A DNA stretch of 37,986 bases from Candidatus Gracilibacteria bacterium S5_H10 (GTDB lineage Bacteria; Patescibacteriota; Gracilibacteria; Absconditabacterales; Absconditicoccaceae), in assembly GCA_019248075.1 (NCBI GenBank), contig JAEHHG010000006.1:1-37986 (forward strand), read 5' to 3'. Position 1 is the stretch's first letter. The number at the start of each line of letters is the position of its first letter. The position numbers and the translations under genes were made by a program. Below are positions 4,098 through 27,732 of this stretch, piece after piece. Below the pieces are notes generated by a model. That model did not search any database. It saw nothing but the letters and a program-made list of their open reading frames with translations, and was not told where the DNA came from.

Positions 4098-7000
4098 CTA
4101 TTTCTCCTGACTTCGTTCGTCAGCCAATACTTTTGTCTGCAACAAAATAAGCTCGGTAGCTATCTTGGTTTGATCAGGTGGATAGCCGTATTCACTCAAG
4201 ATTCTTTTGACTACTACACGAAGCTTGGCTTGAGCAGATTCTTTTATCTGCCAATCAATGGATGTATTTGCTTTTACTTTCTCTACAAGGATTCTAGAAA
4301 TATCTCTGAGTTGTTTATCTCATAAAACTTCTTGCGCACTTGGGTTGGAAGCGAGAGCATCATAAAATGCTATTTCATCTTCGTTTAAGCCAAATTCTTT
4401 AGCTCTATCATCTGTAGTTCTTATCTCTTTAGCTATACTAATAAGTTCGTCTATAATTTGTGCTGTAGTAAGTAGGTTATTGTGATATTTATTTATGACT
4501 TGCTGGAGCATTTCGGAAAGTCTTTTACTTTGAACAAGATTCTTTTTTCCTCTTCTAGCAACTTCATCTTTTAGAATTTTTTTCAAAACTTCCAGTGCAA
4601 TATTTTTGTGTTCCATATCTTTTACTTCCTGTAAGAACTCATCAGAAAGCACGGAAATATTTGGTTTTTCAAGACCAGCTACTGCAAAAACATCCATCAC
4701 ACCTTCTACCTGTACTGCACTATCGATCATCTGTTTGATGGTAGTTTCAATCAGCTTATTTTTTTCGTCTGTTGTAGAACTGGTGAATTTGGTGATGCGA
4801 GCTTTGATAGCTTGAAAGAATGCTATATCTTCTTTGATTTCCATCGCTGGAGGGCTTGGTACGGAAAGCGCAAATGCCTGAGAAAGTAAAGTTACCTGAT
4901 CGACAAATCTCTTGTCACCGTTTTCCAGTCCTAAGATATAATCTTGAGCTGCTAAGATAATGCCCATCTTGCCTCTCGTATCTGCTGTGAAGTATGGTGT
5001 ATAATCGAATTTTGCGAACATTCATTGAACCACTTCGTATTTTTCTCTCATCTGTGCGATAGCATCGGATTGGTCAAAAGTAGGTTTTCCTTCTCCTCCG
5101 CTTTCTGTATATGCTGCTAACGCTTCTTTGAGATCTGAGCCGATACCGATATAATCGACAATCAATCCTCCTGGCTTGTCTTTGTACACACGGTTTACAC
5201 GAGCAATCGCTTGCATGAGCGTATGTCCACGCATAAGCTTGTCGATATACATCGTATGGAGACATGGTACGTCGAATCCGGTCAACCGCATATCGCGTAC
5301 GATTACAAGTTTCAGAGGATCGGTAGGATCTTTTAGTCTCAATGCCAAGTCTTTTCTCTGCTGTTTGGTGGTATGATGTTCCTGTCGATTGAGTGGATCG
5401 CTCGAAGCGGAAGTCATCACTACTTTGATTGTTCACTTTTTCATATCTTTGTCTTCTCGATCTGGACGGAGTTTGATAATCTGATCAAATAAATCTACGG
5501 CTATTCTACGGCTCATAGTAACGATCATTCCCTTTCCTGCCATAGCTTGGCATCTAGTTTCAAAATGTTCAATAATATCTTTTGCGATGGTAGCAAGACG
5601 TTCTGGGTTGCCGACAATCGCTTCCAATTTGGTCCGTTCTATTTTCTTTTCTTGCGTCATACTCATTTCTTCGCCTTCCGTCAATTCTATCATTTTTTCG
5701 TCTAAGAGTTTTATCTGATCTTCTTTGAGCTTGAGTTTGATGAGTCTGGATTCGTAATAGATAGGCACCGTCGCGCCATCAGTCACGGCCTGCTGGATAT
5801 CATAGACGTCGATATAATTGCCAAATACTGCCGGTGTAGAAGCATCACTTTTTTCTATAGGGGTGCCGGTAAAACCGATAAAACTTGCGTTGGGCAATGC
5901 ATCTCTGAGATATTTCGCAAAGCCGTATTTGGTGAAAGCTTCATCGTTTTTGGTGATGGTCTTGGCGGCGAAGCCGTACTGACTACGATGCGCTTCATCT
6001 GCTATGACGACGATATTTTTTCTCTCGCTTAGGCAGTCGAACGTCTCGGAGTTGCCTTCCGGAGAAAATTTCTGGATGGTCGTAAAGATGATTCAGCCTC
6101 CATTTGTTTTGAGAAGTTTTTTGATATGGTCTCTATTTTCTGCTTGTACGGGTGTCTGTCTGAGGAGTTGCTGACATCCGGCGAAGGTAGAGAATAACTG
6201 GTCATCAAGGTCGTTTCTATCGGTGATCACGACTACGGTCGGGTTGTCCAAGGACTGCACGATCTTGCCGGTATAAAACACCATAGAGAGCGATTTCCCG
6301 CTTCCCTGCGTGTGTCGCACGACACCGATCTTGCGGTCGCCTTCCGCCTGCGTAGCGCGCAAGCTTTGGTCTATCGCTTTGTTGACGGCATAATACTGAT
6401 GATAGGCAGCGATCTTTTTGATCGTGATCGTACTAATCTGCCCCGCTTGGTTTTTGGCTTCTTCTTTTTCAAAGACGGTGAAATATCTAATCATATCTAG
6501 CAAAACTGATTTGGTCAGCATGCCATGCACGAGCGTTTCTATTTGCGGAACGAGATGACTTGCGTCCTTGCTGCCGTCCTTGGATTTCCGCTCCATGAAG
6601 CGTGACCACGGCGCAGTCAAAGAACCTGCTTTCGCATCCAAACCATCGGACACGATAAGCAAGGCATTGTAGATCATTAGATTTGGTATAGTTTGTTTGT
6701 AGGTTTGTAACTGCTGATATGCTTTCTCCAAGGTCGCTTCTTCATCTTCAGGATTTTTGAGCTCTACGACGACAAGCGGGATACCGTTGATCAAGAGGAT
6801 GACATCTGGTCTTTTGACAACATTGTTGTACGTCATCGTGTACTGATTGACTACGTTGTATTCGTTATTCTCAGGATGAGCGAAGTCGATGAGCTTTACC
6901 TTATCACCTACGGTATCGGTGCCTTTCTGGAACTCTACTGCGATCCCTTCGGTCATCCATTTGTGGAAAAGTTCGTTGCTTTCGCTAAGGTTGCGGAGGT

Positions 7001-7220
7001 CGAGATTGAGCAGTTGTCTGTAGGCGTCTTGTCTGGCGATTTCAGGGACTTGCGGATTGAGGCGAACTATACCTTCTTGCACTTTGGGCAAAAGAAGAGA
7101 CTGGCTGTAGTCCTGGGTTCTGAGTTGTTCCCGTTGATCGACTTCCAAGAAGGTTCGGTCCTGTGATTGGAAGAGTTCAATCATAAATTTTTCAATATCG
7201 GATTCGTAGATGGTAGACAT
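4098..7220 (-). CDS. hsdR: Type I restriction enzyme R subunit (HsdR)
   Basis: HsdR is the ATP-dependent translocase and nuclease subunit of a type I restriction-modification complex. The frame gives 1040 aa, normal for the family, when four TGA codons are read as Gly (6093, 5433, 5022, 4320). The N-terminal PD-(D/E)xK nuclease has RPDVILL (D139) and VVELK (E153, K155). The SF2 motor has Walker A QGSGKS at about 306-310, the DEAH box at about 408-411, GFTGTP (motif III) and [10 protein letters not shown] plus later ARVNRVY (motif V/VI region). The ATG is 2 bp after the TAA of the RloC-like gene, indicating translational coupling. Only about 4 of 52 glycines are UGA by hand count, much lower than in neighbouring genes. 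Confidence 0.96.
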
Positions 7221-7222
7221 GG

Positions 7223-9409
7223 TTAGCTAATGGAAGATTTTAAAATATTATAATGTTCGGGAAATGTTTGTTCTATCATCTCAAGTAAATATTTTACATT
7301 TTTCTGAGTTTCAGGGACAAGAGAAGGATCAAATCCTTTTCCAGTGATGTGTGATTGATCATTAGTAAATTTATAAATAGCATTTTTCTTTACTTTATCA
7401 AATGATATAATTTCGAGCTTTTGATATGGACTACTATTATTTGGAACCATAAACATTAAAAATGTTTCTAAAACTTTTCTTGCGATATTAGGCATTGGAT
7501 AAACAGAAGCTATTGTGCCATCACTCTCAAAATCCAATAATTTTTTGAATAGATAATGATATTCACTTTCATGGTTCATTAACAATGGATCTAATTTCTG
7601 TATTTCAGCAACCCTTTCTCAATGTAATATGACATTATTTATCATATAGTAACTTTTTCTACCTATGCTGTTTGGTATATTTTTAACTCGATTCAACAAC
7701 AATCTAAGAAAATCAAAATTATGTGTAAATAAGAACAGCTGTTTAGCTTCACTAACGCTATTTTTAAGAAATGAAAATGCCTGAAACACAGAATTCGAAT
7801 CCAAACTAGAAACAGGGTCATCTATTACAACAATTCATTCTTTTATGTTAAAATTCTGATCCTCCAAATGTGAAATAAAATACATGAACGCTATTGCAGT
7901 TTTTTCTCATTCGCTTAGATTTTTTGCTATCTTGTTATTTCTTTTTATAGAATAACCCCCCGAGAGAGAAACTTCAAATACAATTTCTTTTCTCCCTAAG
8001 AAAGTTTCCAATCTATTATTCAAGATTTCACAAGCTTTATGTTCTGAAGATATTATGGATCTATTTTTAATTAGTTTTTCATCAATTTTACTTATTTCTT
8101 TGTTTAATTTTTCAATATCAATTATTATATTTGCTATATTCCTTTCTAAAGATTTTACATCATCCAAGATCTCGCTTAAATAGTGATTTTTTAATTGAAG
8201 ACTTGCTTCATCCTTTTGAGTCTGAAAATTATCTGTTTTTGTGTTATGTTTTTCAATTATCTCATTTATTAGGTCTAAACTTTGAGCGAAATGATTACTT
8301 AAAGCTCTCTCAAAAGAAACTGATTCTGTGGTCTTTGTTTTTTTCTCCTCTAACTTTTCAATAATGGTCGTTATTTCAAATAACAGATTTTGTTTTTCAA
8401 CGTTTAAAGTGGTTAATCTTGAGACAAACTCTGTTTGTAATTCAGAGTAAAACAATGTTTTATTCGGAACATCTAAAACCCTCAAATTATCGAGTCTGTC
8501 ATTTAAATACCTTATTTTAGCATCAATCTTCTCTTTTAATTCTTTGTCTGCTTTATTGAAATGATTTAACAAGTCCTTAAACCTATCTTTTGGCATTACT
8601 TGTCAGCAAAATTCACAAACTTCACTATCATGTGTTTCATAAATTTTAATTCCATCTTCTACCCATTTCGAAATATCAACATTACTTTTCAGTCTTTCTA
8701 TAGTAATAATTTCTGCTGACGCCTTACATAATTCAATGGCATCATTATATTCTTTATCTAAATCTATCTCAAATGAAATTTTTTTTATTTTATCTTTTTT
8801 TTCTTGTCTTAAAGTAGATTGGCATTCTTGTATTTTACTCTCATCGAGAATTGCTTTATGAGTCAATAAACCAAAATCCTTTTCGGCATCTGGTTTTCTG
8901 TAATTTCTCGTAGAGGATCAAGCTATATTTGAACCTATGATTTTTGCTACATCAGTAAATTTTTTATCTTTTTCAACTTCCATTTTATTTTTTTCATCCT
9001 CTTTTCATTTCTTTTCGTCCTTTATTATTTTCAGATTTTCCTCATCCTTTTCAATCGCTTCTTGTATTTTTTTATTTTCTTCTCCTAAGATATAAATTGG
9101 TTTCGCTCTTGAGCCTACTATTTCAATATTCTTTTCAACATAATTCTGGTTAAAAACTCTTATTTTTGTAGTAAAATTTTGTCATTCTTTTGTTGTACCA
9201 CTTTCTGTCTCTATTTCATATTCTAGATCGGGATATTCAGGCGATAATCCACTTTCTAGTATATCAAAAAGTTTGGTTAGTGTTGTTTTTCCACACCCAT
9301 TTCGTCCATAGAATACATTATACTTTTCGAAATCAGATAAAATTTGACTATCTCGTACATAATCTTCAAAGATTCCTAGTTTTTTAATTTTTTTGATTTT
9401 TTTAATCAT
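7223..9409 (-). CDS. rloC: RloC/PrrC-like ATPase, probable anticodon nuclease
   Basis: RloC and PrrC are ABC-type ATPases fused to an anticodon nuclease. They are often encoded within type I hsd loci and cut tRNA when restriction is disabled by phage. This 728-aa protein has Walker A GRNGCGKTT (35-43), a long coiled coil split by a zinc-hook-like CEFCGQ (C265, C268), an ABC signature LSEGEK (~498-503) and Walker B IVVIDDPVSSLD (~525). Its C-terminal domain contains ARKVLETF (R-x3-E) and a later NDQSH, which recall the Arg-Glu-His triad of the PrrC/RloC nuclease. Length and hook favour RloC over the shorter PrrC. Seven Gly are UGA, including those in CEFCG and LSEGE. It lies between hsdS and hsdR. 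An AAA_13 ATPase without tRNA nuclease activity is the alternative. Confidence 0.75.
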
Positions 9410-9444
9410 TATTATGGTTAAACTTTTCTAAAGTATTCTATTAT

Positions 9445-10089
9445 TTAATAAGTAGTTATTTTAAATTCTTTTTGACAAATAGTACAAAAAGCTCAATAGC
9501 TTTCGAAGTCTATTCAATTTTCTTCTCAGCATGATGGACATCTAAATGATCTAATACCGTCATAGCCGATTACTAAATCCGAGGCAATTTTCCATAATTT
9601 ATCAAATTCATCCAAAAATGAATTTACGATATTTGAATCGCTGATGACTGATATGTTTTCAAAGTTATTTTTTAAAGAATTATGTGTAAAATTCATCGAT
9701 CCATAACAAACATCTATATTTCAAGAAACTATAAATTTATGATGCATAACCGAGTATTGGCTCACATTACCTCATAATGTTTTTATTTCACAACAACAAT
9801 AACCCCTATTCTCTCTTTTTTTTAATTCATCGATTATTTTAATGACCGCTGCAGAAACCTTAACCTCTGTTTCTTCAATTGTTTGTGGTCTAAATAGATC
9901 ATTTGCATTAAGTAATATTTTAGTTTCCTTACCTAATTTAATCCTTTCAATAATTTGATCAGCAATCTCTTTGTGTGTAAAATAAGAAACAGCCATTAAT
10001 AATGGATCTGCACGCTCTAATCTTTCTTTTATACACGAAAGAACTACATCAGATCACTCCTCTGGCTTCAAGAAAAATATTTTATTCAT
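9445..10089 (-). CDS. PLD-family nuclease-like protein with C-terminal zinc ribbon
   Basis: The 214-aa protein starts at ATG 10087-10089. It has the single-copy HKD architecture of small phospholipase D-type nucleases such as Nuc. The motif HHKFIVSGN is followed by CYGSMNFTHNS, equivalent to the 'GS.N.T' part. The usual Asp of HxKx4D is not in place: that position is a UGA-encoded Gly, so either the motif is shifted by one residue or the structural Asp is lost. The C-terminus has RCPSCGEE and later CTICQKEF, a four-Cys zinc ribbon probably used for nucleic-acid binding. It sits 17 bp after hsdS and 35 bp before the RloC-like gene. An effector role within the island is inferred. Confidence 0.78.
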
Positions 10090-10106
10090 ATTAACACATT
10101 AACAAT

Positions 10107-11249
10107 CTAAAACTCCACCCTCACTTCTCCCTTCATCAACTTCGGCAACAAGGTATCGCGAGCTTTGGAGAGAGATTGGATCTGATCTACATTATTTATT
10201 ATTTTATTTAAAAATGGTTTTACTAAACAATCAAATTTCAATAAAATATCCTGACTTGGTATAATGGATGGCATATTTTCTAATGAGTTATTCCATACGG
10301 CATATGGCATCGTTGTTCATTGCCCGTGTTGATTTGCATAATCTACAGATTCGTCTAAATTCAATAATATTAAGGAGTATATAAAAAATAATGGTTTATT
10401 CGGCCTTAATACGATTGTCGTTGCTCTTGTAACTCATGAAAAATGAGAAAAATTTACTCTATGAAAATAAGCCCTCATTGCTCAAAACAATATATCTCAA
10501 CTTTCAAATCCAATTAGACTACTCTGAGCTTCCTCAATTGGTTTATAAGAATCTAAACCAAATCTTTTCATTGGTATTTCATCTATTGGAACGTATTTTC
10601 TATTTTTTAATCCTTCTCATAGTTTTAATGTTTCTTTTACGTTCGAGACTAAATCTTTAAATTTTCCAATTCTCCATCCTTCCGGCAGCTCACTATCTAT
10701 GCTATACTTTCAAAACCGTTCCTTGAAGATCGCCTGCGCGGTCGCTTCCAAAGTCTTGTTCTCTTCTCTGAGGAGCTCTATCTTGTCATCAAAGGAAGAA
10801 AGGACGGCGGCGATGGCGCGCTGCTCTTTAGGGTCTGAAGGGATAATTATTTCTATGCCATTCAATATTCCTTGTGTCAAAAGCGGTTGTGCTCCTCAAA
10901 TAGATTTCTTATTTAGATTTTGGTTTGTTAGAAAATAATATAAGAATTTTATATCTGACTTTTCGTTGTTTACTAACCCAAGCGCATTATCTGATAACCA
11001 AAATTTATTGTTTTCAAAATACACACATCCGCAATAAGCGCCAACTCTTCATATTACAATCATATCATCCTCTACATTAAAATCGTCTGCATATCCTAAA
11101 ATACCGTTCCCTCAATATACCGGGAATAATCATTCATTTTTGGGCCTTGCCTTTCAACTCTGTATTTTACAAATTTCTCTCAAAGTCGTCTCCGTTCGTC
11201 ACTTCGGAAGTTGTCAGGTAGTGTGTGTGGTATCGTGAGTGTGGGGCAT
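10107..11249 (-). CDS. hsdS: Type I restriction-modification specificity subunit (HsdS)
   Basis: HsdS recognises the bipartite DNA target for the HsdM/HsdR complex. The 380-aa frame needs about 13 TGA-Gly codons. Two target-recognition domains are visible. The first begins QLPKGRTETTLREICKIQSG and ends at the conserved DPKEQRAIAAVLSSFDDKIELL coiled coil. The second begins ELPEGWRIGKF and ends LSKARDTLLPKLMKGEVRV, the standard C-terminal helix. Both half-repeats are complete, so the protein should be functional. The ATG at 11247-11249 is preceded on the coding strand by a pyrimidine-rich tract. Its UGA usage is far higher than in hsdM and hsdR of the same locus. Confidence 0.95.
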
Positions 11250-11292
11250 AAAATAGGTGGAAAGTAAAAGGTGGAAGGTAGAAGGTTAGAGA

Positions 11293-11535
11293 CTAAGCTC
11301 TTACTGCTAAAGTATTCTTATCTATATAATCCAATAGTCTCTGGAATTGAGCTGGATTTTCTGATTTTACGATAGAAATCGAATGTTCCTGTATTTTATC
11401 ACTACTTTTTAGTTCCTCTAGGAACGTGAAGACGATATGTTGATCTTCTCTTCATTCGGTCTCATAAGGATCAGATATGTAGATCTTTATGGCAGCGTTA
11501 ATGTTATAGATAGATGATCAATACTTAATAAACAT
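11293..11535 (-). CDS. Hypothetical 80-aa protein between HsdS and the winged-helix gene
   Basis: The frame runs from ATG 11533-11535 to TAG 11293-11295 with two TGA-Gly codons. It is a compact alpha/beta-like sequence with an N-terminal strand (NINAAIKIYISDPYET), a central acidic helix and a C-terminal helix FQRLLDYIDKNTL. There are no Cys and no membrane segment. It is spaced 28 bp below the winged-helix gene and 43 bp above hsdS on the same strand, so it is likely in the operon. I do not recognise a family. It could be a small partner or antidote of a neighbouring effector (speculative). Confidence 0.6.
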
Positions 11536-11563
11536 GAGTATATCTTTAAAAGAGTAAAACTAG

Positions 11564-11992
11564 TTATCAGGCAATTGCCACAACTAAGGCTCAAACAGCA
11601 ATTAGTATGGATATAAATGGTCGAAGTGGACTTTGTTTGTTTGCTCGAGGAAGAATTTTCCTATCTCGTCGTGATTTATTTTCTTCGGCTTCGATAGCTC
11701 TGAGGAGCTGAATACCTTTTACGCTTATATTATAATAACCGCCTCCTATATACCTATTACTATCTATAATATCAAGAATTGATAAATTATAAAGCAAACG
11801 ACTCATTTCTGCGTCTGATATTCAAAATTGCTGATTATCAAGTCAATCTCAATATCTAATTTCCACTTGTCCTCAATCTTTTCCTGTTTGTTCATTCAAA
11901 TAATAGAAAACCTCTAAATCTTTTTCCGTCAAATGAATATCTGAAACTTTCTTCATGATGTTGAGCTTTTTCTTGTAATCAATTTCTGACAT
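11564..11992 (-). CDS. Winged-helix-like protein with C-terminal membrane helix
   Basis: This is a 142-aa protein from ATG 11990-11992. Residues ~1-100 look like a winged helix: helix KDLEVFYYLNEQ, helix SDAEMSRLLYNLSILDII, then a beta wing with GGGYYNISVKG and helix IQLLRAIEAEE. A basic linker (KSRRDRKILPR) leads to a terminal hydrophobic helix of about 19 residues (PFISILIAV-G-ALVVAIAG) that runs to the stop. About six Gly are UGA, including two in the helix. It may be a membrane-tethered regulator or sensor of the operon. Two copies of a direct repeat lie in its upstream region. Confidence 0.65.
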
Positions 11993-12056
11993 GGTGAGTT
12001 TTATATCTAAATATCAGCTATTCTTATCATTTATTCTACAAATACAACTATTTCAC

Positions 12057-12116
12057 TTTTGGCAGTTTGATGTATTTGCTAGTTTTCACCTATATTTTAT
12101 ATATTTTTTGGCAGTT
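12057..12116. repeat. Direct repeat TTTTGGCAGTT, two copies 49 bp apart
   Basis: TTTTGGCAGTT occurs at 12057-12067 and again at 12106-12116. Both copies are preceded by a similar 'CTA.TTTCAC' stretch, so a degenerate ~49-bp unit may be duplicated. The repeats lie in the 184-bp gap between the RhuM-like gene and the winged-helix gene, upstream of the latter, and could be an operator or remnants of an insertion. Nothing else is visible in this gap. Confidence 0.5.
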
Positions 12117-12176
12117 GGCTTTTTGATTTGACATATTCTAAAAGATAGATTGATGATATGACTCATTACATAATTA

Positions 12177-13205
12177 TTATTTATTTTCCTCCAATCACTT
12201 CACCATTTTGTCAAAATCAGAGAGATAATTTTTGTCCTGGATAATTCTAAATTTATCATATTCGTTTTCTGCTTTAAGTTTTGCTTCCAACATAGAAATC
12301 TTCCCGATATCGTTCAATATAGGATAATCAGAGAGCTCCAGGAACTGCTGGAGATATGTATCTCGATCTTTCATATTCATGACCTGTCTGTTTTGTGCTT
12401 TATTCTCTGCCATATCAAGATATGAAGTGACTATGGAATTTAACTTTTTGATATGCTCTTCATTCAAATAATTTTTTGCAACTATCACATCTGATTTTAA
12501 TATTTTACCTTTTGGAGCGTTTTTCCGAGTTTTTAATCCCATATATATTTTGGTAGCATCAGCTTCTGTATAGATAATTTCTGCGGCAGTTTTTCCGGTA
12601 ATTGCTCGATGAAGTTTATTTTGTACACTTGCAAAAAAATGCTGGGTAATCTCAGATTCACTATCATAATCGGCAGACAAAGCGTATATATCAGTAATCT
12701 TTTGATATATTCTTCTCTCACTCATACGGATTTCGCGAATTCTTTCTAACAATTCATCGAAATAATCTTTTCCAAAGTATTTTATTTGTTTGAGTCTTTC
12801 GTCATCCATAACAAAACCTTTGATGATATATTCTTGCAACACATTATTTGCCCATCTTCTAAATTCTATTGCTCTAATAGAATTCACACGATATCCCACA
12901 GATAAGATGGCTTTGAGATTATAGTATTTATATTCTCTTTTTACGTCTCTTTCTCCTTCTTTTTGAACTTGTAAGAATTCCTTACAAGTTGCTTTTTCTT
13001 CTAATTCTCCTGTTTCAAAAATATTTTTGAGATGTAAAGTAATATTTTGTGGTGTTGTCTCAAAGAGTTCGCTCATCTTTTTTTGGGTCAGCCAAAGCGT
13101 CTCATCGTTAAAAAAAACATCAATATTTACCTTTCCTGTCTCTGTTTGGAATATAACAAAATTGGAAAATTGTTGTAATGGAAGATTGTCTTTTTTTTCT
13201 GTCAT
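12177..13205 (-). CDS. RhuM-family protein in the type I RM locus
   Basis: RhuM-family proteins (named for a Salmonella pathogenicity-island gene) are frequently found next to hsd genes. Their biochemical role is unclear. This 342-aa protein has the family's N-terminal segment NIDVFFNDETLWLTQKKMSELF, then QNITLHLKNIF, YKYYNLKAILSVGYRVNS and FRRWANNVLQEYIIKGFVMDDERLK. The C-terminal domain includes AITGKTAAEIIY. The last Gly (12195-12197) is TGA and the protein then ends -LEENK at TAA. It begins 10 bp after the hsdM stop, so it is co-transcribed. Only about one of a dozen Gly is UGA, like hsdM and hsdR. Confidence 0.9.
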
Positions 13206-13215
13206 CGATCATCTA

Positions 13216-14745
13216 TTACAAACTAAAACCAATCTTCTTTAATTGTTCCTTTATGTTTTCGTTCATTTCTTGTTCTTTTGCCATTTGCTCTGCGAGGGTC
13301 TTTGTCAGTTCCTTCATTTTCTCTTCAAATGGAATGCCATCATCTTCCGCTTCGGTGATACCTACATATCTTCCTGGAGTCAGGACGTAATTATGTTTCA
13401 GAATTTCATCTTTTTTTGCTGATTTACAGAAACCTGTCTGGTCTTGGTATTTCCCGTCTGTTTTTCTCCGTTCGTGATAGGTGTCAGTGATTTTTTTGAG
13501 ATCTTCGTCAGTAAATTCTCTATGCACACGATCTACGAGATGTCCCATTTCTGATGCATCGATAAACAGCACTTCACCTTCTCTTTTTCTATCTCAGTTA
13601 CCTGATCTTTTACGAGAAATAAACCGCAAACATGCAGGGATGCCGGTATTGTAAAACAGTTGTTTTGGTAAAGCTACGATACAATCCACAAGATCAGCAT
13701 CGACTATCCTTTGACGAATTTCTCCTTCTCCACTACTTTGTGAACTCAGTGAACCATTAGAAAGCACAAGCCCCATGACGCCTTTTGGTGAAAGGTGATA
13801 GATCATATGTTGCATCCATGCAAAGTTAGCGTTCCCACTTGGCGGAGTACCAAATTGCCAGCGGACGTCTCATTGGAGAATTTCCTGTCCTCGCTCTGAT
13901 TGATTGAATGGTGGATTAGCTATGACAAAATCTGCTCTCATATCTGGGTGTAAATCTTTGAGCAATGTACCTTCATTATTTCGTGAAATAAGCGAACCAT
14001 CAATCCCGCGAATCGCTAAGTTCATGCGACAAAGACGGTAAGTTGTCTGGTTACTTTCTTGACCATAAATAACGATATCATCTATTCTTCATTGATGTTC
14101 TTGGATAAATTTTTCACTCATCACAAACATACCTCCACTACCGCAAGCCGGATCGTATACCCTTCCATGATATGGCTCTATCATTTCTACAAGAAGTTTA
14201 ACGATGGATTTTGGCGTGTAGAATTGACCTCCTTTTTTTCCTTCAGCATTGGCAAATTCGCCAAGAAAATATTCATAGACGCGTCCCAGAATATCTTTGG
14301 ATTTACTTGCTTCTGTACCGATAGCCGTATCTCCTATCAGATCGATAAGTCAGCCAAGCGCTACAGGATCAAGGTTTTGTTTAGAGTAGACTTTAGGAAG
14401 AATTCCTTTGAGTGTGGGATTTTTTTTTTCTATTTCTTCCATAGCTTGGTCGATGTATTTACCAATTTCTGGATTTTTTCCTTTGGAATGAAGAAATGAT
14501 CGACGAGCATTTTCTGGGACTCGGAAGACGTTTTCTGCTTTATATTCATCTTTGTCTTCTGCATCAGCACCAGCATAACTTCCTTGTGCTGCAAGTAATT
14601 TTTCATGAAGTTCTTCGAAGCTGTCGGAAATATATTTTAAGAAAATAAGCCCAAGTACGACATGTTTGTATTCTGCAGCATCAATATTTTTTCTCAGTTT
14701 GTCCGCTGCCTTGAAAAGTTGAGCCTCGAAGTTTTTGTCTGCCAT
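13216..14745 (-). CDS. hsdM: Type I restriction-modification methyltransferase subunit (HsdM)
   Basis: HsdM methylates adenine in the HsdS-defined target using S-adenosylmethionine. The 509-aa protein starts at ATG 14743-14745 ([20 protein letters not shown]), which matches family N-termini. An ATG 45 bp upstream is less likely. The SAM-binding motif [10 protein letters not shown] lies near residue 200 and the catalytic NPPF near residue 277. The C-terminal part contains [19 protein letters not shown] and LTPGRYVG, both standard. Four Gly are TGA (for example 14350-14352), a low proportion by hand count. It is the first gene of the long minus-strand operon. Confidence 0.96.
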
Positions 14746-14824
14746 ATTTTTTTGATATAATAAAAAAATCATTTCAATATGTATAATCATTTTCTAAGAA
14801 AAACCAACCGAATATAGAAAAAAA

Positions 14825-17250: not shown

Positions 17251-18192
17251 ATGAGTTTCACTCATTTACACGGACATAGCACATTTTCTTTTCTAGAAGC
17301 TATAGGAAAACCAGCGACCATCATCAACAAAGCCAAAGAACTCTGAATGAACGCTATAGCAATCACCGATTACAGCGGAATGTATGGAATGGTAAAATTT
17401 TACCAAGCAGCAAAAGACACGGGAATCAAACCTATCATAGGAGTAGAACTAGGATTTGTCATGGATATCAACTCCAACATACCAGAACAACAAATCGGGA
17501 ATATCGTCATATTAGCAAAAAACAAAGAAGGCTATCAAAATCTTATGGAATTGACGTCATTTGCAAACAAAGAAGGAAGCAAAGGAAAACCAAAGATAGA
17601 TCTCCAAGCGCTCAAAACATTCTGAAAGGAAATTATTTGTCTTTTTGGCGGAGCTAATTCATGGATAGGGAAAATGATAGCCCTAGATGAAAAAGAATCA
17701 AAAATGATTGAGATTATTCACCTCATCCAAGAAAGTATAGGCAAAGAAAACGTATATATAGAAATCATAGCGCAAGATTACAAAGAGACCGAAGAATCCA
17801 AAAAAGCGAACGAAGTTCTTCTCGCATTAGCAGACAAAGAACACATACAATGTGTTGTCAACAACAACTATTTTTATCCTACCCAGCAAGAAAAAGAAGC
17901 CCGAGAAGTAGCGCTTGCTATCAAAGACGGATTGAAAATATATGATGAAACCAGAAGGAAACCCAAGGGACAATTTCATATCATGAACGAAGACGAAATT
18001 AGGAAAATCCTTGAAAACAACGGATTTGAAAAAAACATGATTGAAAAGATGATTGCGACAAACAATAGCATCGCTGACAGCATAATGACAGATATAGAAC
18101 TCAATCAAGCACTTTTTCCAAACTACGAAACTCCTGAAGACATAAGAGAGATATACGAAGAACACAAAGATCAACTCGTAATAAACGAATAG
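17251..18192 (+). CDS. Stand-alone PHP domain of DNA polymerase III alpha (DnaE N-terminal part)
   Basis: The 313-aa protein matches only the first third of bacterial DnaE. It has HLHGHSTFSFLEAIG, AKELGMNAIAITDYSGMYGMVKFY, GIKPIIGVELGF, NIVILAKNKEGYQNL, VVNNNYFY and RRKPKGQFHIMNEDEI. It ends at TAG just after the ALFPNYETPEDIRE segment, where the polymerase palm would normally begin (full DnaE is over 1000 aa). Two Gly are TGA in the N-terminal half, plus one near residue 129. The PHP domain acts as a metal-binding module and, in some polymerases, as a proofreading nuclease. A strong terminator follows, so no polymerase part is present here. Either the polymerase is split or this is a truncated paralogue. 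Confidence 0.85.
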
Positions 18193-18240
18193 CAAAAAGC
18201 GTCTTGCATTATGTAGTGACATTACTATACAGTAGACAGT

Positions 18241-18279
18241 CCCCCCATTTCAAAAAAAAATCGTTCTTTTTTTTGGGGT
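18241..18279 (+). terminator. Strong terminator after the PHP gene
   Basis: A run of C and A8-9 (from 18241) pairs with TTTTTTTTGGGG (ending about 18279) across a short loop. It lies about 50 bp after the TAG. Confidence 0.75.
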
Positions 18280-18300
18280 GTCTATTTTTCTCCCAATTAA

Positions 18301-18327
18301 GTGCTGCCGTTTCGGTGGCACTTTCTT
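18301..18327 (+). terminator. Second terminator-like hairpin
   Basis: GTGCTGCC (18301-18308) can pair with GGTGGCAC (18314-18321) allowing two G-U pairs. The loop is GTTTC and the tail TTTCTTTATT. Confidence 0.5.
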
Positions 18328-26817: not shown

Positions 26818-27732
26818 TTATTTGAATAACGTTAAAACTTTTTCATCTCTTCCTTGTACTGCAGCATCAGTTCCTCATCATTTGATACCAAGTTTTTCAG
26901 CTAATGCTTTAGCAGAAGTTCCTTTGTCTGCAATAAGGACAAATCCTCATTCTTTGGTATAAATGAATATATTCTGACCTTTAAACATTCATTTTGCTTG
27001 AAATGCGACGTTTTTAAAATTCAGTTCGACGGGAACAAGGAATATTTTATCAAAATCCTTTCATGAAGAAAAATCAGATCATCATAATATATTTTTGATC
27101 ATAGTAGTTTCTAATGATTCCAAATTTGCTTTCATATCATCATATTCTTTGAGTGTTTTATCAAGTTTATCTGCAAGTTGTGTAGCAGTTTTGATTCATA
27201 GTTTTTCTACTGTAACATCGAGGATTTCTTGTACTTCATGAAGTCTAGCAGCGACTTTTGGTCCTGTAACTGCAACGATTCTTTTGACTCATGATGCAAC
27301 AGCTTCCTGAGAAACTATAGTAAAACATCAGATATCTTTTGTATTCACAACATGTGTTCCTCCACAGAGTTCGATAGAAACGATTTCATTATCATGATTA
27401 AATACTCTCACAACGCGCACCTTATCGCCATATTTATCTTCAAAAAATGCTTTAGCTCAAGTTTTTGTAGCTTCATCCAAAGACATTTCATTCACTTCTA
27501 CACCATAAGAATCATAAATTATCTGATTGATATTTTTTTCAATATCGTGAATCTCTTCAGGGCTCAACAACCTGTCTGCATTGAAATCAAATCTAAGATA
27601 ATCCTCATCTACAAGCGAACCAGCTTGTTTTGTTGTTTTAAAAATCTTAGCAAGCTCTGTATGAAGCAAATGCGTAGCGGTATGTGCTCTCATTTTTGCA
27701 TATCTTTGGCATTCTTCTACTACTAATTTCAT
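26818..27732 (-). CDS. AlaX-like protein: AlaRS editing (tRNA-SAD) and DHHA1 domains without catalytic core
   Basis: The 304-aa protein corresponds to the C-terminal part of alanyl-tRNA synthetase. The second additional (editing) domain has HTATHLLH and ELCGGTHV, which supply the zinc-binding HxxxH and CxxxH. A coiled coil ([19 protein letters not shown]) and a DHHA1 domain ending [14 protein letters not shown] follow. The aminoacylation domain is absent: the gene starts [20 protein letters not shown], and the upstream gene is unrelated. AlaX-type proteins hydrolyse mischarged Ser- or Gly-tRNAAla in trans. It could also be half of a split AlaRS. Confidence 0.87.

Follow-up and report, generated by a model that had tools for sequence, protein, structure and literature searches.

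The window, i.e., the whole stretch of 37,986 nucleotides that was analyzed, carries on its forward strand a reading frame (17251-18192) that is open only under genetic code 25, in which TGA is translated as glycine; the two in-frame TGA codons correspond to G32 and G125. The product of 313 amino acids is a PHP domain (Pfam PF02811, E = 3e-41) and matches the N-terminus of the DNA polymerase III alpha subunit DnaE, covering positions 1-289 of the 1022 positions of the NCBIfam model TIGR00594 (E = 4e-55); PRK06826 is matched as well (E = 2e-56). The PHP domain is complete, and the frame ends at the boundary between PHP and palm, in agreement with the first-pass annotation, which had read the protein as the N-terminal DnaE region only, stopping where the palm should begin. 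The features considered here are as follows:

17251-18192, + strand: separately encoded PHP domain of DNA polymerase III alpha (N-terminal domain of DnaE), 313 amino acids, code 25
17251-18087, + strand: globular PHP core, residues 1-279 (pLDDT mostly >85; Z = 35-38 against the PHP regions in solved DnaE structures)
18088-18189, + strand: C-terminal tail, residues 280-313, equivalent to the segment that enters the palm in fused DnaE
18231-18286, + strand: hairpin downstream of the PHP gene, possible transcription end (RNA fold -15.9 kcal/mol, z = -2.2)
18299-18323, + strand: terminator-like stem-loop after the PHP gene (11 pairs, 3-base loop, T-rich tail)
26818-27732, - strand: separate gene for the C-terminal (editing) portion of alanyl-tRNA synthetase (about 300 amino acids)

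The hairpin and the terminator-like stem agree with the earlier claim that a terminator follows the gene. The reported absence of polymerase sequence nearby was confirmed too: no C-family polymerase core was found within the window, and the matches to PF07733 in the source genome are located solely on contig C1. Judging from their translations, the genes adjacent to the PHP gene are unrelated to DnaE; one neighbor codes for a secreted protein resembling SpoIID, the other for a UvrD-like helicase. Elsewhere in the window (4098-14790, - strand), translations were read that resemble those of a restriction-modification cluster of type I, comprising R, S, and M subunits and extra genes interspersed between them.

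The source genome assembly has a size of 952 kb in 258 contigs and is 74% complete. Its polymerase part, which lacks a PHP domain, is encoded on the separate contig C1, where the first polymerase ORF begins with MSLKVMHIHEFELRYRAYKGLNYKF, right after the position at which PHP ends in fused DnaE; the closest large gene upstream is in opposite orientation. A second PHP domain was not found in this 74% complete genome. The polymerase gene on C1 is broken in the assembly by two frame breaks and a small internal duplication (locus L003, about 1500-2964). Since the genes of relatives are intact, this interruption by duplication and frameshift is probably an assembly fault, and the case for an intact polymerase gene consequently rests on the relatives.

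A profile search with full-length DnaE was performed on 49 genomes of the order, which represent 22 genera and include three single-contig genomes (G001, G002, and G042). Each of the 49 contained a separate PHP match (about profile positions 1-290), and 47 a separate polymerase match starting at about 230-360 on the DnaE profile. No full-length DnaE match was obtained in this search (0/49), so that a full-length dnaE with an intact PHP domain elsewhere, which the first-pass annotation had named as an observation that would speak against its reading, was not found in any of the 49. Two fragmented genomes, G021 and G047, contained PHP and no detectable polymerase match; in G022 the polymerase match starts at 202, with stop codons inside the extension, and a few genomes have the match in two or more pieces. 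PHP and palm were found in separate places, not in a single polypeptide, in 47 of the 47 genomes with both, and the main polymerase copy, checked as the first-pass annotation had suggested, lacks PHP in the source genome and in every relative in which both genes were found. In the single-contig genomes, the two genes are 86 kb (G001), 335 kb (G002), and 198 kb (G042) apart, and a broken assembly therefore is not the cause of their separation. A search for an operon or a neighborhood connecting the PHP and polymerase genes found none; the flanking genes vary between genomes, with close relatives sharing some of them, and in G016 the two matches lie 4.4 kb apart with genes reading as gyrB and ruvA in between.

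The short length of the PHP protein is conserved, which the first-pass annotation had named as support for its reading: the proteins of the relatives have about 295-322 amino acids, except for one cut by a contig end and one without a normal front. They share the end point LFPxYxxPxxIxxLYxxxKDxL, and the PHP of G028 is very diverged. Polymerase frames were located at 35 of the 36 loci examined and encode about 880-1080 amino acids, none of the 35 with a PHP domain. The start motif M-x-[IL]-x-EFE-[LI]-R was located by script near the front of most of these frames; at a few loci the script printed the open frame only, in which the motif is readable. In nearly all genomes the partner gene matches TIGR00594 from about 300 to 1020; the catalytic motif PD[FI]D.DF was seen, and the gene encodes the palm with the catalytic aspartates, the fingers, and the C-terminal domains. 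The dnaE gene of the Absconditabacteria (SR1) lineage is thus split in two genes.

Outside the split family, DnaE is full-length among 154 genomes of the class, TGA-recoding sister families included; exceptions from this count are genomes cut by contig ends or without a good match. The screen of the phylum, in which the lower-scoring genomes were checked only in part, yielded no second clear PHP/palm split, and the lower-scoring genomes that were checked had breaks elsewhere, breaks at contig ends, or long frames continuing past the breaks. In G185 and G204 of family f33, the DnaE match stops at about profile position 883, and a different contig carries a weak match to about 880-1022; this may be another type of split, located at the C-terminal end. 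No match to TIGR00594 or PF07733 was obtained in family f60 of the same phylum (e.g., the single contigs G302, G383, and G413) or in G303 and G233. Family B polymerase had no match in those genomes of this set that were tested; family A polymerase is present in the tested f60 genomes and in G233, and none was found in G303. These genomes may represent either a lineage without a recognizable C-family replicase or masked sequence.

Structure prediction based on a 44-row alignment resulted in a PHP model with a pLDDT of 90. The best matches of this model to solved folds were the Pol III alpha subunits of Thermus, Mycobacterium, and E. coli (Z = 35-38), with free PHP enzymes (RNase AM and phosphoesterases; Z about 16) far below. 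The TIGR00594 match and the fold match to DnaE structures both identify the protein as the N-terminal PHP domain of a DnaE. In the model of the PHP protein alone, confidence is mostly low for the tail (residues 280-313; pLDDT 45-76), which contains one helix (296-308). The tail is overall about as conserved as the remainder of the protein, yet includes some of the most conserved residues (F289 and P290 in 48/48 sequences, Y292 in 47/48, and Y302 in 46/48). These nearly invariant residues are as expected if the tail still packs against the palm.

The metal-ligand positions 5, 7, 16, 41, 66, 84, 134, 206, and 208 are occupied by H H E Y E N G N F, where an intact site has H H D H E H C/H D H. 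An intact nine-ligand site HHDHEH[C/H]DH, as found in active PHP phosphoesterases and nucleases, is present in none of the 49 free PHPs, whose typical residues there are H H E Y E N G N F/H, and a role of the free PHP as stand-alone hydrolase (nuclease or phosphatase) is unlikely for this reason. The site is likewise degenerate in all six fused sister DnaEs (0/6 intact), and its loss thus probably preceded the fission. Among other bacterial DnaEs the site is intact or nearly so in nine of ten, one of the nine having P at the first position.

In the fused sister DnaEs both flanks of the break are contained in one chain, ...IPKYELPESDQKIYEKAMESEKNETGIKKLTSDEWYLRYLSFKGLNWRY...; this sequence opens with a part that can be aligned to the free PHP end and closes with one that resembles the start of the free polymerase. 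The break therefore lies within the linker. Trees of the PHP and polymerase parts were calculated from 35 split pairs, the six fused sister DnaEs, and eight other DnaEs. The split proteins formed a single branch in either tree (support 100 each), and 21 of 32 bipartitions were common to both trees (mean 0.27 and maximum 3 after shuffling). Pairwise distances of PHP and polymerase were correlated (r = 0.74; 0/2000 permutations), as were the terminal branch lengths (Spearman 0.94). The agreement of the trees, with the split clade on one branch in each, thus fits a single ancient fission of dnaE in the ancestor of the order (candidate division SR1/Absconditabacteria) and its vertical inheritance; such congruence fits any vertically inherited gene pair and is in itself no proof of contact. 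The ratio of PHP to polymerase pairwise distances was 1.24 in the split clade vs. 1.03 in the fused sisters, a rough measure because the trees used different models, and could reflect somewhat relaxed constraint.

A search for an obvious epsilon subunit yielded a DEDD exonuclease domain in 48 of the 49 genomes of the order. In three genomes where it was read, this domain makes up the N-terminal portion of a longer protein whose C-terminal part is large, and a separate DnaQ-like protein of about 190 amino acids was read in the source genome only; no single obvious epsilon emerged from this search. Lys63-Pro of the E. coli alpha subunit contacts epsilon (PMC3919608). Its likely equivalent in the free PHPs, assigned via the GIKPI motif, is K60-P61 (K60 in 40/49 and P61 in 39/49), and this apparent retention is suggestive only.

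Very probably, dnaE was cut once and the PHP chain docks in trans on the polymerase as a structural part and not as a nuclease; conserved sequence, co-inheritance, and analogy argue for this docking. The ancestral dnaE of the order was divided at the PHP/palm boundary into a PHP half, represented here by the 313-residue protein, and an unlinked partner of about 880-1080 amino acids with the palm, thumb, fingers, and C-terminal domains. PHP would occupy the site that the fused domain takes up in other bacteria, and the conserved tail of 34 residues would be the natural joint between PHP and polymerase. The degenerate PHP of E. coli is a structural element, and mutating it lowers stability and activity of the polymerase (PMC3666897), from which we infer the same role in trans: the docked PHP would confer stability, and possibly offer a platform for the exonuclease, instead of acting as a nuclease. 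An order-wide alpha subunit of two chains, with PHP as a separately expressed subunit that possibly regulates polymerase stability or exonuclease recruitment, also appears likely. Of the earlier suggestion that the replicative polymerase is split with PHP in trans, the split is strongly supported (free PHP in 49/49 genomes and PHP-less polymerase in 47), and the arrangement in trans is presumed only.

The first-pass annotation had offered as alternative that a truncated copy is kept as a separate metal-dependent nuclease or phosphatase, detached from the polymerase. Stand-alone PHP enzymes such as RNase AM and the phosphoesterases found among the fold matches do exist, and the ligands H5, H7, and E66 are mostly conserved still, but the nearest relatives of the free PHP are by far the PHP domains of DnaE, and positions 4, 6, 7, and 8 of the nine-ligand site mostly read Y, N, G, and N. 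With the site degenerate in 49 of 49 proteins and missing from the fused sisters too, the tail conserved, and neither another PHP-bearing dnaE nor any other PHP for the polymerase found, this proposal is not supported and is regarded as improbable. Little probability is also assigned to a polymerase working without PHP, the PHP gene being a leftover with a different or fading role. The relatively faster evolution of PHP than in the fused sisters and the diverged copy of G028 would fit such a leftover, but each of the 49 small genomes retains the gene, which is nearly constant in length and has invariant residues, and the terminal branch lengths of both genes co-vary. The fragmented source assembly and the frame breaks in its polymerase gene could point to an artefact, namely an ordinary dnaE interrupted by a contig break or a frameshift; the chance of this is negligible, however, as the split recurs in the three single-contig and many near-complete genomes, the stop and the new start are conserved, the positions are unlinked, and the PHP gene is flanked by unrelated genes.

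The alanyl-tRNA synthetase fragment in the window has its catalytic counterpart (profile positions 1-529) elsewhere in the source genome (C93:2071-3633), and 25 genomes of the order showed, with few exceptions, the same two-place pattern; this enzyme is thus split lineage-wide. A split alanyl-tRNA synthetase of similar kind is known from Nanoarchaeum. The lineage may have a general tendency to split large multidomain genes where two domains meet.

If the two-chain alpha subunit is real, it is an exception to the rule that PHP and polymerase reside in one chain in bacterial replicases. Why these replicases retain even an inactive PHP is an open question, which a naturally cut-off PHP makes directly testable. 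The case also cautions that splits of this type can be genuine, as annotation surveys throw out truncated sequences (PMC12926913) or join up or delete fragments (PMC3919608). A PHP/palm split is not mentioned in the passages retrieved from a 2013 survey (about 2000 genomes) and a 2026 survey (>3000), and the words Patescibacteria and Absconditabacteria do not occur in the text of the latter. A description of a split dnaE or polymerase III in Absconditabacteria was not found in a full-text literature search whose scope excluded preprints and most subscription journals. The split is therefore likely, not certainly, new.

Compared with the DnaE-type Pol III alpha of E. coli, Thermus, and Mycobacterium, the PHP fold, the domain order if the chains were joined, and the PD[FI]D.DF motif of the partner are alike, but one polypeptide there corresponds to two unlinked genes in Absconditabacteria. 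The cyanobacterial split DnaE is likewise a replicative DnaE made from two genes; its break lies inside the polymerase part, and a split intein rejoins the halves. In Absconditabacteria, by contrast, the chain is divided between PHP and palm, and no intein-sized extra sequence was found at the PHP end or the partner start. The PolX-like free PHP proteins of Actinobacteria also represent a PHP domain freed from its polymerase (PMC12926913), but they are relatives of the family X polymerases, in which the PHP active site, the part lost in Absconditabacteria, is the better conserved one. The degenerate PHP of E. coli, to which a structural and exonuclease-binding role has been assigned (PMC3666897, PMC3919608), resembles the free PHP in having lost the metal ligands and kept the fold, and differs from it in being a covalent part of alpha.
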